Below, piece by piece: positions 7,927-14,855 of a stretch of DNA of 64,000 nucleotides. Under the pieces are notes generated by a model. That model ran no database searches. It was not told where the DNA came from and worked only from the letters and a program-made list of their open reading frames with translations. The DNA lies in NCBI RefSeq assembly GCF_030169785.1, contig NZ_CP125854.1, positions 372,001 to 436,000 of the forward strand. Direction: 5' to 3'. Position 1 is the first letter of the stretch. Every line of letters starts with the position of its first letter. The DNA comes from Bdellovibrio sp. 22V. Lineage in GTDB: Bacteria > Bdellovibrionota > Bdellovibrionia > Bdellovibrionales > Bdellovibrionaceae. The position numbers were made by a program, and so were the translations under genes.

Positions 7927-7933
7927 AGAGATT

Positions 7934-8419
7934 TTATTTCTTCAAATACTCCGTCAACTGCTGAACCACGATGCCCCAGCCTTCATGAAAGCCCATTTGC
8001 TCATGGACCTTACGGCCTTCTTCGTCTTGGTGTATCGCGATGGCAGTGTACTTGGTACCTTCTGGATGCTTTTCCAGAAGCAGAACGGCTGTGAACATTA
8101 AATCGTGCGGACTCTGCGGCTTTGGTGAAGGTCTAAAGCCTGGCTGCAGAGCCGTCGTCCAAACAAGTTTTTCATAAGGGACGAGTTCTAAAAAACATCC
8201 TGTACTTGGGAACTTTTGTCCTTCAGGGCTTTGCATGACGGAAAAGAATTTTCCACCAGGGCGCAAATCCATTTCGCACTCAACAGTTTGCCAAGGCTTC
8301 GGACAAAACCATTCTTTAATTCCAACTGGGTCCGTCCACGCTTTGTAGATTTGCTCGGGAGTTGCGGGAACGATTTTTTCTAGCACAAGATCAAGTTTTG
8401 GATCGACTTTGATATTCAT
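7934..8419 (-). CDS. AHSA1/SRPBCC-family protein
   Basis: A 161-residue START-like protein of the AHSA1 type: [27 protein letters not shown], then [12 protein letters not shown], and a C-terminal amphipathic helix ([17 protein letters not shown]). The fold holds a hydrophobic ligand cavity; ligand unknown. It has a good AAGGAG site, lies 16 bases after the doxX-like gene on the same strand and so is probably its operon partner, under control of the divergent TetR gene at 8955. It ends head to head with the cupin gene, with only 7 bases between stop codons. Confidence 0.87.
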
Positions 8420-8435
8420 AGTTACTCCTTATTAG

Positions 8436-8816
8436 TTAGGGAAAGACTTGTCTAAGGCGGGAGTCACGCAAATAAAGACCCAGCCAGATAAAAGCAGCAA
8501 TATACAGAGGAAAAAGCGTGTGCGAGAAAAGTGGATTGCTGACACGCACGTGGCTTGCGATAGCTCCACCTAAATATCCTGTAAGAAGAACCGCACCAAG
8601 AAGCGACGTCTTTGGAATGGCGTAAAGAAGAGTGCAAATCAAAAGAATGGTTCCTACCGTCGGCATAAGCTCCATCGGCCACTGCAATGCAGCCCCGGCT
8701 TCTAGAGCTTCCGGTGGAAGCTTATCCATAAAAAATTTAATGGTGCCATCGAACAATAAAAAGGCGATCGCCAAACCGCTTAAGATTCTACCCATCCATA
8801 TTGCTTTTGAGGTCAT
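8436..8816 (-). CDS. DoxX-like membrane protein
   Basis: A 126-residue integral membrane protein with four hydrophobic segments and the DoxX/DoxD-like pattern (GRILSGLAIAFLLFDGTIKF ... AIPKTSLLGAVLLTGYLGGA). DoxX proteins are quinone-linked or thiol-linked membrane proteins of mostly unknown role. I use the ATG at 8816 because AAGGAG lies six bases upstream. Its promoter region carries an 18-bp dyad that matches one next to the divergent TetR gene, so regulation by that TetR protein is very likely. Confidence 0.85.
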   Translation of the reverse strand: MTSKAIWMGRILSGLAIAFLLFDGTIKFFMDKLPPEALEAGAALQWPMELMPTVGTILLICTLLYAIPKTSLLGAVLLTGYLGGAIASHVRVSNPLFSHTLFPLYIAAFIWLGLYLRDSRLRQVFP

Positions 8817-8852
8817 GTAAGCTCCTTTTTGTGTGTCTTTATCGGTATTATT

Positions 8853-8870
8853 ACATATCACTTGATATGT
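8853..8870. promoter_or_regulatory. TetR operator, copy 1
   Basis: A perfect inverted repeat, ACATATCA - CT - TGATATGT (8-bp arms, 2-bp spacer), in front of the doxX-like gene. The same motif recurs at 8929-8946 before the tetR gene, which supports a shared operator. Confidence 0.8.
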
Positions 8871-8928
8871 TTAGAAGTAAATTTTAAGTGTGTTTCAGCT
8901 TTAATAAAGTAATATCCATGGACAATTT

Positions 8929-8946
8929 ACATATCAGTTGATATAT
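8929..8946. promoter_or_regulatory. TetR operator, copy 2
   Basis: ACATATCA - GT - TGATATAT, one mismatch from perfect symmetry and nearly identical to 8853-8870. It ends 8 bases before the tetR start codon, which suggests autorepression at or just after transcription start. Confidence 0.78.
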
Positions 8947-8954
8947 TTGATTTG

Positions 8955-9563
8955 ATGGCTAAACGTATTGCAAGAGATCCAGAAAAAACACGTGCCCAGA
9001 TATTGAATGCCTCATTTATGGAAATCTATAGCCGGGGCTTTAATGGTGTTGGCGTGCGCGAACTGGCTGCCAAGGCCGATGTCACAATCGGGGCCTTCTT
9101 CCACTACTTCCCCACAAAAAACCACGTCGGCTATGCCATTGTCGATGAAATCATCCACACGGGAATTCTGGACCGTTGGATTAAGCCGCTGAACGCTTAC
9201 AAGAATCCGATTCAAGGCATCTTGAAATGTTTTAAGAACACTTTTGATAACTGGCCGGATGAATACGTAGCCCTTGGATGTCCGTTGAATAATCTCACTC
9301 AAGAAATGGCGGGCTCGGATGAACTCTTCAAACAAAAGACTCGCGCCGTTTTAGAAGATTGGATCGCCAAAACCCGCGAGCACCTGAAGCGCGCCCAGCA
9401 AACCGGCTACTTGCGTAAGAACGTGAACACCCAGGAACTCGCGGAATATATAGTGACGTTTCAAGAGGGCACGTTCGCGATGGGTAAGGCGTTGAACGAT
9501 CGTCGTATCTTTGATTCGATGTACAACTCGCTGAAGCAGCATCTTGAGGCCTTGATTTCTTGA
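8955..9563 (+). CDS. TetR/AcrR-family transcriptional regulator
   Basis: A 202-residue TetR-type repressor. The N-terminal helix-turn-helix is clear: DPEKTRAQILNASFMEIYSRGF, then VGVRELAAKADVTIGAFFHYFPTKNHVGYAIVDEII; residues 70-202 are the helical ligand-binding and dimer domain. I use the ATG at 8955; a TTG just before it is also in frame. No strong ribosome site is seen because the operator occupies that position. It is divergent from the doxX-AHSA1 pair and shares two operator copies with it, so it probably controls both directions. Confidence 0.92.
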   Translation: MAKRIARDPEKTRAQILNASFMEIYSRGFNGVGVRELAAKADVTIGAFFHYFPTKNHVGYAIVDEIIHTGILDRWIKPLNAYKNPIQGILKCFKNTFDNWPDEYVALGCPLNNLTQEMAGSDELFKQKTRAVLEDWIAKTREHLKRAQQTGYLRKNVNTQELAEYIVTFQEGTFAMGKALNDRRIFDSMYNSLKQHLEALIS

Positions 9564-9745
9564 GAAGTTCTTTAAAGTAATATTTTTTGGAGCCTCAGCT
9601 ACTATTACTTAAATAATCGGAAGGAATGGGGCTCGGGCCGTCCTGCCCCTCGGCGCTTCGCGCTGCCTTCGGCACCCCAAAAATGCCGTCATGGCATTTT
9701 TGTGAATCCCCTGAACACTTTGAGTTCAATCACTCCACATCGAGC

Positions 9746-9795
9746 AAATTAGAAAATAAAAAACCACCTTGCGGTGGTTCTTTATTTTCTAATTT
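9746..9795 (-). terminator. Strong rho-independent terminator, probably the original ssrA terminator
   Basis: Inverted repeat with 23-base arms (9746-9768 and 9773-9795, one mismatch) and a 4-base loop. Read on the minus strand it is ACCACC-GCAA-GGTGGT followed by TTTTTTATTTT. It begins exactly where a copy of the tmRNA 3' end (9794-9805) stops, as expected of an ssrA terminator separated from its gene by an insertion. Confidence 0.75.
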
Positions 9796-9805
9796 GGTGG
9801 AGGCG
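9794..9805. repeat. Direct repeat of the tmRNA 3' end (putative attachment-site copy)
   Basis: TTGGTGGAGGCG occurs here and at 14509-14520 in the same orientation. On the minus strand it is CGCCTCCACCAA, the 3' acceptor strand of tmRNA plus CCA. No tRNA can be folded here. I read it as the distal attachment-site copy of an ssrA-integrated island. Confidence 0.6.
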
Positions 9806-9926
9806 CCGGTGGCTCAGCTAACCCTAAATAAACACATCGGTTTTTTATCTTTGCCCAGAGAAGTGTCCAGAATTATGCACCCACTAGGGAGTAGGTTTGA
9901 TTAGGACGCGATAAATCAATGTTATA

Positions 9927-12900
9927 CTAGAACCGAATTCTTGTTCTGGACCCTTTGCCTTCCGGTACAAAACCATTTTGTCTCATCCAAAGAAGAGCCT
10001 TCCTTAGTCTTTCCGGCGGGAATAGCTTTTTTCGTTCACTCCATTTGTCCCTAAACTCTGCCACGATCTGATCATCGGTCGGATTTTGCTTTTGCAGAAG
10101 CAGATCATTCCAACAAGCAAAGAGTGTCGCTACTATTTCCGTCTGAATCGAATTTAAGTTTGTGAGAATTTCAAGTTTGGAATGTACCTCGTCCCAAGAC
10201 TTTCCTAGTCTTTGCCTAATATAGTTTGAACCTAAAGAGATTTTGTCTGCCTTACTGTAGGTGATTAGTTTTTTATTTTTTCGAAGTTTTGTTTCAGAAG
10301 TTTTAAATAAGCCTTCTTTGACACCCAATGCTTCTATTCCAAAAGATTTGCCGTAAATCGCCTGCAAGGCAACAGGACCCGCTGCCTCTCTGTAGTATTC
10401 TGTCTTCAAGTCCAATGGTGATGATTGATCCAGTAGATAAAATACTTTTGCGAGCTTTACCCGGCCTAGCCTTTGTTTCTCATGCGCATCAACAATTAGA
10501 CAACCGAGCCCCAGACGGTCTCTAATGTGAGTCTGAATAGAAGTGTCATTAAAGATTTGAGGCGGCTCATTGGCTTCCATATAACCAGCGAAGCTAATCG
10601 ATTGCCACCCTCCAAGCTCACTGAGCATCGAATCTAAGGCGCTGACTTTCTCTACAACAAGATTTATATGAGTTAGCACTTTTTGAAAGTCCCTAATGGA
10701 GTCGCTGGTCAGGGCCAAAGACTTTCTTTCCTTGAGCCATTTTTCGCAAACTTGATATCCCCCGACTGAATACTGCCAGACACTTGCTGGGACCCCTTCA
10801 AAGTACTGCTTTTTGTTGATGTAGATTCTGTTTTCCTCATATGACACTTTTTGAATTTTCCCGCTGCCCTCAATCGGAAATTTTCCAATGTATTGTGCAC
10901 GTCCGACGACGTCTCGAAGACTTACCAAATCAGTTAACGCTCGACCAAACTCAACTATCTTCCAGAATGTTTCCCTGTCTTTAGGGAGAGGAATTCTAGG
11001 AAACTCAATTTTCAACCAATCCCAGTAGAGGGAGCGGTACTCGCTAGAATTTAGAACAGCGAATACATAATTCATTACATCAGCGACCCCGCAGGTTGTA
11101 TCAGCGCCGGTCGTATCATTTACAAGCTCAACACCTATCGCGGTTCTTAAGACCTTCGCGAATTTTGCACTTATGTTCGGTACTCGCTCGGCATGCCCAT
11201 TTTCATTGAATTTCGGATCTAACAATTGAGCTTCGTCCTCGGAAAGATCCCAATACTCATAAAGAAATCCCGGATAAATTCTGTCTGACACGTGATGATT
11301 GGTTACCAAGTTGATGTCTGCCAAGCCGTTGACAAACGAAACGTGGCGAAATCCGTCGTCTACTGTTTGTCTATAAGTTACTACCCCAAGATTTTCATTT
11401 AGGAAGTGCCTCATGACTTTGTCCCGAGCCCTTCCAAGCGCTTGCGGGTCGTAATAAATATACCTTCTGTCAAACGGCCGAAACCAATACGGACGGATAT
11501 TCTCTCTGGAGTATTCGAGGTCCTCCAGTTTTTTAACCGACCAACCTGGTGACTCATAGAGCGGAAAACGATCATGCAATGAAGCGTCAGTGGGATCTTC
11601 TAAAATCTCTTCCCACCGTTCCGCAAGTGCTTCCGCTGAGTCATCTACAAAGAGCGGATCTCGCTTAGTTTGAATACCAGAACTACCCACCACGAATATT
11701 TCATCTACAGAAGGAAATTTAGTGTAGTCGCTTTCGCTATCATGCGTGGTTGGTACAAAAAAGAAATACTTTTCGTCCAGCTCAATCGGTGTCCACTCAA
11801 TAGACTTCCAGCTATTTGCATCCAAATAATCGTATTTCTCTTGTTTACTACCCCAGGCTTCGTGATGAAAGACTCGACCGTACTTTCCTGTTTTAGTACC
11901 GTTTCTGACCAACAAATTTATTGAAACACCTTGCTTAATCTCGAATACGTTTTCGTCTTTTCTACCGTCAGGAGTTTCGGTGGCTTTAACTGAATTCCCA
12001 TGTAGGTCAAAGACGTAGATCTCATCGAATGACTCTAGCAAGCTCTCTCTCATTCTCCGATGCGTGATTCCCTCAATAAAACTGTGGTTTGTGATCATTG
12101 CGATTGCGCCTTGGCCCGTCTGTTCAATTCGCCATTGCGCAAACTTAATGAATTTGATGTAGTCGTCGTCCAAATTCAATTTTTTTTCGTTTAAGCCGGT
12201 TTTATAGTCCTTAATGAGCTCGTTAATCCAATCGCTTCTGTTTTGAGAGCTTACTGCGTAGGGAGGGTTACCCATTACGACCATAACAGGAGCACTCTTC
12301 TTCACTGCGTTTGCGGCGGTAGCCTCTTCGGACAACCATCTTGCAAAAGGGAACAACTGACCCGTGGCTTTGGGCTCATCAAGAGTATTAGTCAGATAGA
12401 TATTTAATCGCTCTTCTTCTGAAGCTTCTTGTGAGAACACCTCTGTTTCGATTCCCAGCTTCATATGTGCCAGAATATACGGTGTCATTAAGAACTCAAA
12501 TCCGAAGAACCTAGGTATCACGTTCTTCTTCAGATAGTCTGGCCAGAGGCCCTCGTTACCTTCAAATTGCTTTTTTAAAAATTTGAACGACTCATTCAAA
12601 AATGTTCCAGTCCCGGTCGCAGGATCGAGAATTGTAACGCGATGATACTCTTTCGGCGTTTCGTTCTGAACAAGTGTCAGCTTTGTGTCGTCAGCAAGGC
12701 CATCAATTATTTCGAATTTTTCCTTTAGTAGCTGGTCGACACTTCTCACGATGAAGTTAACGATAGGAACGGGAGTGTAGTAAACACCACGGCTCTTTCG
12801 TGAGTCAGAGTCGTAAGCATTTAGGAAGGTTTCGTAGAAGTGAATGATTGGATCAGCAGTATTTTGCCCCTGGCGAAAATCTTCAGCCAGTGCATTGAAG

Positions 12901-13736
12901 TCTACTCGGTTCATTAGGTTGACAAGGTCTTCGACAACCCAGACTACGCGGTCCTCAAGATCGGGTCCCGCAAGGTTTAAGAAAATTCGCCTCAAAAATG
13001 GATTACTTCTCGGTATTGCGTAGGAAGCGGTTTCTCTCTGCAAAATACTGTTCGTCATGTTTAGGCGAGCAGTAAAAAGTCCGTATGGAAGCGTTTGTGC
13101 ATAGAGATCAGAAAACTCATCTTCATCCAAAGTAGGTAACAAGATTGTTCTGAAGCTTGAAAGCTGATGGAATAAGTTTCCTCCTTTATCTGCGTCTTTA
13201 AGAGCCTTTTTAATGCCATACCGAATTAGCTGAGCCAGACCTGCCATCCGCGTTGCAAGTGCCGACGAGGATGTGATGATGGGCAATCGAACTCTTAGAA
13301 AGGCATCGAGGACGGACTTTGAGTCCTCAATCATTTCTTTGCTTTGCATCAACTTTTTGTTTTTGAGTTCTGCGATACTAAATCTGTCTCTAAGAGAGCC
13401 CTCTACATACCATCGGAACTCTAAGTAGTTAGTGACGATGAGATTTGGCAGCGCCTTTTTGTATCGAACAATCTGTTCTGATTCTTCTAGATCGTCTAAA
13501 TCCGCGCCCAAGTCTTTGGTTTCAATGTGCCCGAGCGGCAAACCACTTTCTGACAAGAGAATGTCCGGCGCCCCACAGTTAACTCGTCGAGGCTCATTTG
13601 TAATTTCAAATTCCTCGCTTGAGATCTCTTTAAGGAACTGAATTAGTGCTGGTCTGTATGTGTGTTCAGTTGCAACACCAGACTTAAAGTGTTTCTGAAC
13701 CTCTGAAATGTAGGTGCGAAATGCTGCATCTTCCAT
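9927..13736 (-). CDS. Single-chain restriction-modification enzyme (type IIG/ISP-like N6-adenine methylase-nuclease)
   Basis: A 1269-residue protein that appears to combine nuclease, methyltransferase and target recognition. Residues 24-74 carry a PD-(D/E)xK-like nuclease signature: E24, then GAPDILL with D58 and HIETK with E72 and K74. Around residue 370 is the SAM motif DPATGTGTF, and around 487 the amino-methyltransferase motif NPPY, as in gamma-class N6-adenine methylases. Residues 650-1050 match the type ISP C-terminal region. I see no DEAD-box helicase motifs, so it is closer to type IIG than classical type ISP. Residues about 1090-1269 (GRVKLAKVFYLLDQ ... YREAAGP) look like a Panacea-type tail. 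It lies alone in the island. Confidence 0.88.
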   Translation of the reverse strand: MEDAAFRTYISEVQKHFKSGVATEHTYRPALIQFLKEISSEEFEITNEPRRVNCGAPDILLSESGLPLGHIETKDLGADLDDLEESEQIVRYKKALPNLIVTNYLEFRWYVEGSLRDRFSIAELKNKKLMQSKEMIEDSKSVLDAFLRVRLPIITSSSALATRMAGLAQLIRYGIKKALKDADKGGNLFHQLSSFRTILLPTLDEDEFSDLYAQTLPYGLFTARLNMTNSILQRETASYAIPRSNPFLRRIFLNLAGPDLEDRVVWVVEDLVNLMNRVDFNALAEDFRQGQNTADPIIHFYETFLNAYDSDSRKSRGVYYTPVPIVNFIVRSVDQLLKEKFEIIDGLADDTKLTLVQNETPKEYHRVTILDPATGTGTFLNESFKFLKKQFEGNEGLWPDYLKKNVIPRFFGFEFLMTPYILAHMKLGIETEVFSQEASEEERLNIYLTNTLDEPKATGQLFPFARWLSEEATAANAVKKSAPVMVVMGNPPYAVSSQNRSDWINELIKDYKTGLNEKKLNLDDDYIKFIKFAQWRIEQTGQGAIAMITNHSFIEGITHRRMRESLLESFDEIYVFDLHGNSVKATETPDGRKDENVFEIKQGVSINLLVRNGTKTGKYGRVFHHEAWGSKQEKYDYLDANSWKSIEWTPIELDEKYFFFVPTTHDSESDYTKFPSVDEIFVVGSSGIQTKRDPLFVDDSAEALAERWEEILEDPTDASLHDRFPLYESPGWSVKKLEDLEYSRENIRPYWFRPFDRRYIYYDPQALGRARDKVMRHFLNENLGVVTYRQTVDDGFRHVSFVNGLADINLVTNHHVSDRIYPGFLYEYWDLSEDEAQLLDPKFNENGHAERVPNISAKFAKVLRTAIGVELVNDTTGADTTCGVADVMNYVFAVLNSSEYRSLYWDWLKIEFPRIPLPKDRETFWKIVEFGRALTDLVSLRDVVGRAQYIGKFPIEGSGKIQKVSYEENRIYINKKQYFEGVPASVWQYSVGGYQVCEKWLKERKSLALTSDSIRDFQKVLTHINLVVEKVSALDSMLSELGGWQSISFAGYMEANEPPQIFNDTSIQTHIRDRLGLGCLIVDAHEKQRLGRVKLAKVFYLLDQSSPLDLKTEYYREAAGPVALQAIYGKSFGIEALGVKEGLFKTSETKLRKNKKLITYSKADKISLGSNYIRQRLGKSWDEVHSKLEILTNLNSIQTEIVATLFACWNDLLLQKQNPTDDQIVAEFRDKWSERKKLFPPERLRKALLWMRQNGFVPEGKGSRTRIRF

Positions 13737-14253
13737 GATGTTGTTGTCGAATCATCCTGACTCGAACGTCCCTCATAAACTAGAATATACAAAGGAGCTT
13801 TATGTTGGCAGACCTATCCGAAAAGCTGGTCGTTACTACGTCGACGAAAGTTCTGAAACTAGGATTCTCTACCGACAACTTTTAGGCTGAACATCCAGCT
13901 CAATAATACATCCAGCACTTAGGTCCGTTTTTGGAGTATATTAACTTGTTAGCCTTTAGAAAGTTGAGACATCAATTTTCGCTACGAATACCACGTTAAT
14001 ATATGGATTGAAAATGTCATGTCTATCCCATGCGCCCGAAATTATTGCCGAAGGATCTTTTCCGAATTTTTATTACACGCAAAAGCGCATGCAGTTGGCT
14101 GCGGTATATTCAATTCGGATTAGAGTGTAATAAGTTGTATTACCTCGATGTACTACCGCGATCCTTCAATGGCAAATCGGCGGATCAAAGGTTGTGCCCC
14201 CTCCCATGTCCCCGTTGAGCTGCCTATCTAGTTCGTTTTAGATAGCTATCTTT

Positions 14254-14412
14254 ATGAAATGGCGAAATGAGATCTTGAACTATTTTAAAACCGGTATTAC
14301 TAACGCAAGAACAGAAGGTTTTAACAATGTAGCAAAGCTAGTACAGAAGCGAGCTTACGGCGTTAAGAGCTTTGAAATGTATAGACTCAGATACCTAAAT
14401 GCTTGTGCTTAA
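14254..14412 (+). pseudogene. C-terminal remnant of an ISL3-family transposase
   Basis: A 52-codon frame ending in TAA at 14410 encodes the typical end of ISL3 (DDE_Tnp_ISL3) transposases: TGITNARTEGFNNVAKLVQK followed by RAYGVKSFEMYRLRYLNACA. The conserved N-x3-EG-N-x4-K and RAYG motifs are intact, but the zinc-finger and the first catalytic parts (several hundred residues) are absent upstream. It marks past IS activity in the island. No terminal inverted repeats were recognised. Confidence 0.8.
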
Positions 14413-14508
14413 ATGACTTTTTGAAATTGCCCACCATGGAGCGAGTAGAACCGTAGAACCTGAGTCTTTATTAAAACTCACCCAGTTCGATTTTACGGTA
14501 ACCGGAAA

Positions 14509-14520
14509 TTGGTGGAGGCG
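14509..14520. repeat. Direct repeat at the tmRNA 3' end (proximal copy)
   Basis: TTGGTGGAGGCG, identical to 9794-9805. It covers the encoded CCA end and 3' acceptor strand of ssrA and forms the right boundary of the putative island. Confidence 0.6.
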
Positions 14521-14855
14521 GGGGGAATTGAACCCCCGTCCGCAAGTGATCCGCGATAAGGCGCTACATACTTAGTCAGTGTTTTAGTTTGTTCAGCCAG
14601 CTTCCACTAACAAAATCAGACTGAACACTCCCCCAGTAAATTTAAGCGAGTCTGCTGGAGAAAACCCAACTCACCGAGGTCCCTAAATGACGATCAATCC
14701 AAGCGCGGAACCACCGCAAGGTTGATCGTGCGAGCTAATTAAGCTGCAAGTGCGTAATCGTTGCCAATTACAAAATGCACGTTTTTATCGAGGTCCTCAT
14801 GCGCCCCGGTATGCTCCTTATGTTTCAGCACCCACGTCGAAGCCAGTACGCCCCC
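14510..14855 (-). ncRNA. ssrA: tmRNA (transfer-messenger RNA)
   Basis: Rescues stalled ribosomes and tags the unfinished proteins for proteolysis, with SmpB. Read on the minus strand it starts GGGGGCGTACTGGCTTCGAC and ends GGGTTCAATTCCCCCCGCC plus TCCACCA, so the acceptor stem GGGGGCG/CGCCTCC, the T arm and an encoded CCA are all visible. The tag frame lies at 14739-14765: GNDYALAA then TAA, preceded by TAATT. Length is about 346 nt, normal. No convincing terminator follows directly at 14510; the expected one seems displaced to 9746-9795. ClpXP and Lon, which degrade tagged proteins, are encoded at 41.8-48.6 kb. Confidence 0.96.

Follow-up and report, generated by a model that had tools for sequence, protein, structure and literature searches.

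The sequence behind the tmRNA gene of Bdellovibrio sp. 22V is, with high probability, best explained by a mobile island that would have integrated site-specifically at the 3' end of ssrA, followed by the later insertion of an ISL3-family insertion sequence (IS) from a clade whose copies lie in the flanks of tRNA and tmRNA genes. The window, the whole stretch of DNA that was analysed, comprises 64,000 nucleotides (G000:C1:372001-436000) within one 3.6-Mb contig; comparison genomes were species representatives, and the genus set consists of the host and 23 other genomes. ARAGORN and Rfam RF00023 (183.9 bits) place ssrA on the minus strand at 14510-14855, with its 3' end at 14510 and a tag peptide of GNDYALAA. 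The initial annotation had pointed to a 12-base repeat of the tmRNA 3' end, and this repeat is exact: CGCCTCCACCAA is present at 14509-14520 and again at 9794-9805, with 14 of 15 nucleotide positions matching between the slightly longer stretches 14506-14520 and 9791-9805. The extended pattern CGCCTCCACCAAWTT, equivalent to CGCCTCCACCAA(A/T)TT, occurs at exactly two places in the 3.6-Mb genome, the two junctions, on the same strand, and the reversed control gave none. Both att copies can be observed directly as a direct repeat on the minus strand, the restored ssrA 3' end CGCCTCCACCAATTT at 14506-14520 and the displaced copy CGCCTCCACCAAATT at 9791-9805, which forms the far end of the island and is continuous with a hairpin as in the congener G017. 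The locus has the feature by which such islands are recognised, an intact tmRNA gene with a displaced 3' fragment downstream in the same orientation. In genome G010 (L056), a second partial tmRNA-like stretch lies ~1.7 kb downstream of ssrA (~31 nt at 1734, with a weak 385-nt model match) and may be a longer displaced ssrA fragment.

The hairpin beyond position 9794, annotated as a strong minus-strand terminator, has 21 pairs, a folding energy of -26.9 kcal/mol and z = -8.5. Aligning seven hairpins, both adjacent to ssrA and displaced from it, recovers the 21 pairs, seven of which have changed on both sides with pairing kept, and the pairing is conserved in six relatives. The tmRNA was also said to have no clear terminator at its present end, in line with the absence of any detected terminator-like site on the minus strand directly after ssrA and with the weak folding of the flank just behind the gene (z = -1.9). 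An empty site is seen directly in G017, where the tmRNA has the 3' end CGCCTCCACCA and the hairpin (ATTTAGAAAATAAAGAACCACC...GGTGGTTTTTTATTTTCTAAATT) adjoins it without a gap, just as had been predicted. Next in G017 come the same repeat as at 9623-9740 of the host and then the neighbour of the TetR gene (8473-8802 in the host). The TetR-type regulator (8952-9563, plus strand; Pfam TetR_N and TetR_C_13) is the first gene past the island and had been expected to adjoin the empty site; it is absent from the G017 junction, where its next neighbour is found instead. Uninterrupted order, with hairpin and repeat directly behind ssrA, is found in four congeners (G005, G011, G017 and G021), and the hairpin is displaced from ssrA in G000, G019 and G022. 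Given the G017 empty site, the adjacent orthologous hairpins of the congeners and the compensatory changes in the seven-hairpin alignment, the hairpin at 9746-9793 (minus strand) is the predicted terminator of ssrA itself, now past the stop codon of a restriction-modification (R-M) gene, and the 4.7 kb are, on this comparison, an insertion between the two. The intergenic repeat at 9623-9740, for which no strand was assigned, follows the ssrA terminator in the uninterrupted congeners and is dispersed, with further copies near G000:C1:101051, 2651688 and 3406685 (ending ...CGAGCCCCATTCC). In G016 (L051 6725-8345), the TetR block (7932-9547 in the host) has the opposite orientation with respect to ssrA.

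A chance coincidence of repeat and hairpin within an ancestral gene order is scarcely credible. It could draw on the small number of exact bases and on a composition that is not foreign, and the shortness of the repeat (12 exact bases) and the lack of contrast in base composition also weigh against the island; the GC comparison of 9806-14509 with its flanks, which had been put forward as a check, gave no clear difference (40-45% in the island, 40-50% in the flanks), and foreign composition was rejected as a marker. Chance is nevertheless refuted by the G017 empty site, and it would leave unexplained a pattern unique to two junctions in 3.6 Mb. Moreover, none of the other 23 genus genomes has an orthologue of the R-M gene, so the gene order is not ancestral. 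Together with the empty site, this bears out the initial annotation of an element of ~4.7 kb that was inserted at the tmRNA 3' end and pushed the terminator away.

The host is not alone in this arrangement, as other islands split ssrA from its downstream sequence in three congeners (G006, G019 and G022). The G022 island, ~1.7 kb long and encoding a RES-domain protein, lies between ssrA and TTCAATTCCCGCCACCACACCA plus the hairpin, and ~2.8 kb separate ssrA from the hairpin in G019. The interval in G006 amounts to 9.7 kb, ending at CCGCCTCCACCATCCTTCGCC..., and the same sequence stands directly behind ssrA in G009, which represents the corresponding empty site. Despite their differing content, the islands of G006 and G022 also duplicate the ssrA end. 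Genes found behind ssrA in the genus encode a SIR2/ThsA-like protein and a type I methyltransferase in G006, HamB-like helicases in G002 and G023, a type III restriction enzyme in G014, an AAA ATPase like NsnB/AriA in G001, a Dsr1-like protein in G015 and an Mrr-type nuclease in G020. From these predicted functions, the ssrA site is a putative defence-gene landing pad in this genus. Varied anti-phage defence genes lie behind ssrA in different congeners at loci L053, L055, L057, L058, L059 and L067. The idea that cargo next to ssrA is without exception co-directional was discarded as too weak, since it holds for 19 of 22 cases in the genus and is mixed outside it, against a background of 61% same-strand neighbours; the tRNA control comprised only three tRNAs.

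The cargo of the host island is a 1269-aa type IIG R-M enzyme (9927-13736, minus strand, co-directional with ssrA), identified by Pfam (Type_ISP_C, N6_Mtase) and PADLOC (REase_MTase_IIG, 850 bits) in agreement with the single-chain enzyme annotated between the repeats. Its translation shows the motifs NPPY, DPATGTGTF and PD...ETK, and the predicted protein would be a single polypeptide with regions for nuclease, methyltransferase and specificity functions and with an extra C-terminal 200 aa that resembles the C-terminal parts of type I specificity subunits. It is like other type IIG enzymes with an ISP-type C-terminal domain, which join nuclease, N6-methyltransferase and specificity in a single chain, and no clear difference from them was seen. 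Relatives in the phylum are distant (30-44% identity), and the genome contigs gave one distant match. A promoter of the R-M gene's own was rejected as a candidate, promoter-like sites being no commoner than chance, and the stretch 9800-9935 has no match within the family.

The integrase gene is not on board, as had been annotated: the island contains no Phage_integrase (PF00589) match, the genome's three matches lying elsewhere, and no remnant of an integrase or of an XRE-type gene was found in it. The absence of an integrase or relic counts against site-specific integration, and it means that the island is decayed and does not count as active by the Islander definition. Relatives suggest what may have been lost. 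An XRE-type gene and a tyrosine integrase follow ssrA in the same direction in G007, G047, G049 and G059, across the order; the XRE gene behind ssrA is retained in G014, G057 and G058, and in G028 it is followed by an integrase on the opposite strand. By their gene content these modules are a putative lineage-wide family of ssrA-integrating elements, and the lost integrase likely belonged to it. Several genera have XRE and tyrosine integrase genes directly behind ssrA (L082:7686-9202, L122, L124, L133). It is rather unlikely that the lost enzyme was instead a serine recombinase as in the ssrA islands of Dehalococcoides (PMC3146451). In favour of this enzyme class, two congeners, G012 and G018, have relics of serine recombinases near ssrA, and a serine recombinase gene lies further along in the G007 island region; against it, what immediately follows ssrA in several relatives is the pair of XRE and tyrosine integrase genes, and the host flank resembles that of an XRE-bearing island (G014). 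The serine recombinase fragments of G018 (L054:13179-13514) and G012 (L064:13625-13960) are near-identical and lie ~4 kb behind ssrA.

The resemblance to G014 concerns the sequence immediately behind ssrA, where the flank 14461-14520 and its counterpart in the G014 island share 82% identity across 60 nt. In G014 this flank forms a strong hairpin with a U-rich tail (z -4.9), whereas the homologous host stretch, with z -1.9, keeps part of the stem and has the U-tail replaced by the ISL3 right end GTAGAACCGTAGAACC at 14445-14460. The stretch 14461-14505 (minus strand) would accordingly hold the island-borne remains of a substitute terminator. The element probably brought this replacement terminator, which is intact in G014, and the ISL3 insertion later damaged it. 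The initial account of terminator loss by a single insertion stands as regards displacement of the original terminator, but the loss was probably a two-step process. Transcription might then read through from ssrA into the co-directional R-M gene, ending at the old ssrA terminator past its stop codon, and such read-through should be measurable because tmRNA is abundant in attack-phase Bdellovibrio (PMC3627812).

The transposase debris that had been annotated between the repeats proved to be an ISL3-family right end at 14251-14460 (plus strand) with a transposase C-terminus at 14254-14412 (PF01610, E 5e-15). This remnant ends 49 nt from ssrA, matches the end of a complete IS in G003 at 97% identity across 202 nt and closes with its terminal octamer GTAGAACC twice in tandem (14445-14460, plus strand), a stacking seen in other copies as well. 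With an ISL3 end inside the segment next to ssrA, and a clade that homes to such flanks, one could propose that ISL3 activity brought the segment, as a composite transposon or by an IS-mediated rearrangement, and that no site-specific integrase was involved. We regard this as very improbable, as ISL3 elements leave 8-bp duplications and not 12-15 bp of the ssrA end, no second IS end is present near 9806, and duplication of the ssrA end recurs with the different cargo of G006 and G022. Under the preferred explanation of integration followed by ISL3 insertion, the mobile island would first have integrated site-specifically into the ssrA 3' end, its own att copy restoring the tRNA-like end and the island supplying the substitute terminator, while the original 3' fragment and terminator would have been pushed 4.7 kb downstream. 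The integrase would subsequently have been lost, leaving the type IIG R-M gene as surviving cargo with the old ssrA terminator past its stop. An ISL3 element would then have inserted ~50 nt downstream of the new ssrA end, removing the U-tail of the substitute terminator, and would finally have decayed to its right end.

The association of this IS clade with tRNA genes was observed directly in two surveys. In the first, IS ends were searched for in the family and 20 places were checked for tRNAs; at 14 of them the 3' end of a tRNA or tmRNA gene is 16-165 nt away, and the configuration is the same every time. The second survey collected transposase copies from the phylum in three groups, A being the relatives of the remnant, B ~28% identical to A, and C other ISL3 elements, and scored testable copies for the presence, no more than 600 nt from the 3' end of the transposase gene, of a tRNA or tmRNA gene encoded on the other strand. 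Such a convergent gene was found for 27 of 35 testable copies in group A and 16 of 17 in group B, so that 43 of 52 are located a short way downstream of such a gene, compared with 0 of 14 in group C. The 43 cases span 13 kinds of tRNA plus tmRNA at a median distance of 125 nt from the transposase end, and no copy in the phylum survey has the tRNA upstream or in the wrong orientation. Assuming 40 tRNA genes per 3.6 Mb and treating the copies as independent, which they are not entirely, the binomial tail is ~1e-84. A branch with an SH-aLRT of 99 sets apart a side of the tree that contains every tRNA-linked copy, and none of the 19 outgroup rows is tRNA-linked; the tree was built quickly and some of its branches are long. 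Nine testable copies of groups A and B have no detected tRNA, one of them with an N run in its flank. The loci on which this picture of the clade rests are 14251-14460 of the window, L161-L175 and L180-L249. Among the matches listed, those on plasmids are at most 30% identical to the clade, and no relative was found in viral contigs.

Two IS copies with clear boundaries measure 1355 and 1372 bp, have the ends GGTTCTTCCCCC and GGTTCTACTCAC and are flanked by 8-bp duplications; the transposase of full relatives carries the ISL3 zinc ribbon and DDE (DDE_Tnp_ISL3) domains, and the inverted repeats start with GG. In several copies (including L163, L168, L170, L182 and L195), the end that faces the tRNA carries the element's own terminal octamer in duplicate or triplicate. 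The repeats track each element's own end, because in G244, where the IS end is GGAACTAC, the repeated octamer GTAGTTCC matches this differing end. On our reading, the stacked octamers are putative traces of further copies having inserted, one after another, at the terminus of a copy already in place. The T-arm is a candidate signal, since the right end of the IS (GGTTCTACTC) is similar to the T-arm consensus of tRNAs, GGTTCRANTC; this is no more than a resemblance. We have good confidence, from position and orientation of the copies, that the clade recognises tRNA and tmRNA genes generally and would insert a little way past their 3' ends, with a uniform orientation and with copies stacking at a single gene, as a bacterial DNA-transposon counterpart of tRNA-homing retrotransposons. 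It is quite improbable that the pattern reflects survival and not targeting, with insertions elsewhere lost and those behind tRNA genes harmless. Flanks of tRNA genes are indeed often free of protein genes, but ISL3 elements outside the clade survive in this phylum at a distance from tRNA genes (the 0 of 14 in group C), harmless intergenic sites are many, and survival would not account for the fixed orientation and the lack of any upstream copy.

Islands in tRNA and tmRNA genes have long been known, as in the Islander class (PMC4383910), the ssrA islands of Dehalococcoides (PMC3146451) and CP4-57 of E. coli (PMC10107115), and the tmRNA locus is already known as a defence hotspot (PMC10121019). 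The host's ssrA island belongs to this known class of tmRNA-gene islands, with which it shares the oriented displaced 3' fragment at the far end, the intact gene at the near end and accessory cargo between. It differs in having no integrase and being very small, in a displaced fragment that includes the terminator of ssrA itself, followed here at base resolution, and in a substitute terminator that was broken by an IS. The ISL3 clade shares the zinc ribbon and DDE_Tnp_ISL3 domains, the 8-bp duplications and the GG-starting inverted repeats of its family, including CLJ-ISL3 of Pseudomonas; unlike CLJ-ISL3, which inserts into many protein-coding genes (PMC7643977), its copies stand behind tRNA and tmRNA genes in one orientation. 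In the open-access literature, to which our search was confined, no account of ISL3 elements homing to tRNA genes turned up. Homing of this kind is known from TRE3 and TRE5 of Dictyostelium and Ty1 and Ty3 of yeast (PMC5391098), whose insertions likewise lie a short way from a wide range of tRNA genes. TRE3 sits ~100 bp downstream of tRNA genes and forms tandems at one gene (PMC5391098), making it the nearest functional parallel; TRE5-A depends on the Pol III machinery (PMC5391098). These are eukaryotic retrotransposons, whereas the ISL3 clade is a bacterial DNA transposon, alike in working and not a member of their group.

In the island, the way in which integration at ssrA parts a structural RNA gene and its terminator can be followed cleanly and at base resolution, and ssrA emerges as a putative landing pad for defence genes in predatory bacteria. 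Of greater weight than the island is the IS clade: if its targeting is true, homing to tRNA genes would also have arisen in bacterial DNA transposons, and the clade would offer a small transposase for studying generic tRNA-gene recognition. It would also account for the abundance of IS ends at tRNA and tmRNA flanks in this phylum.
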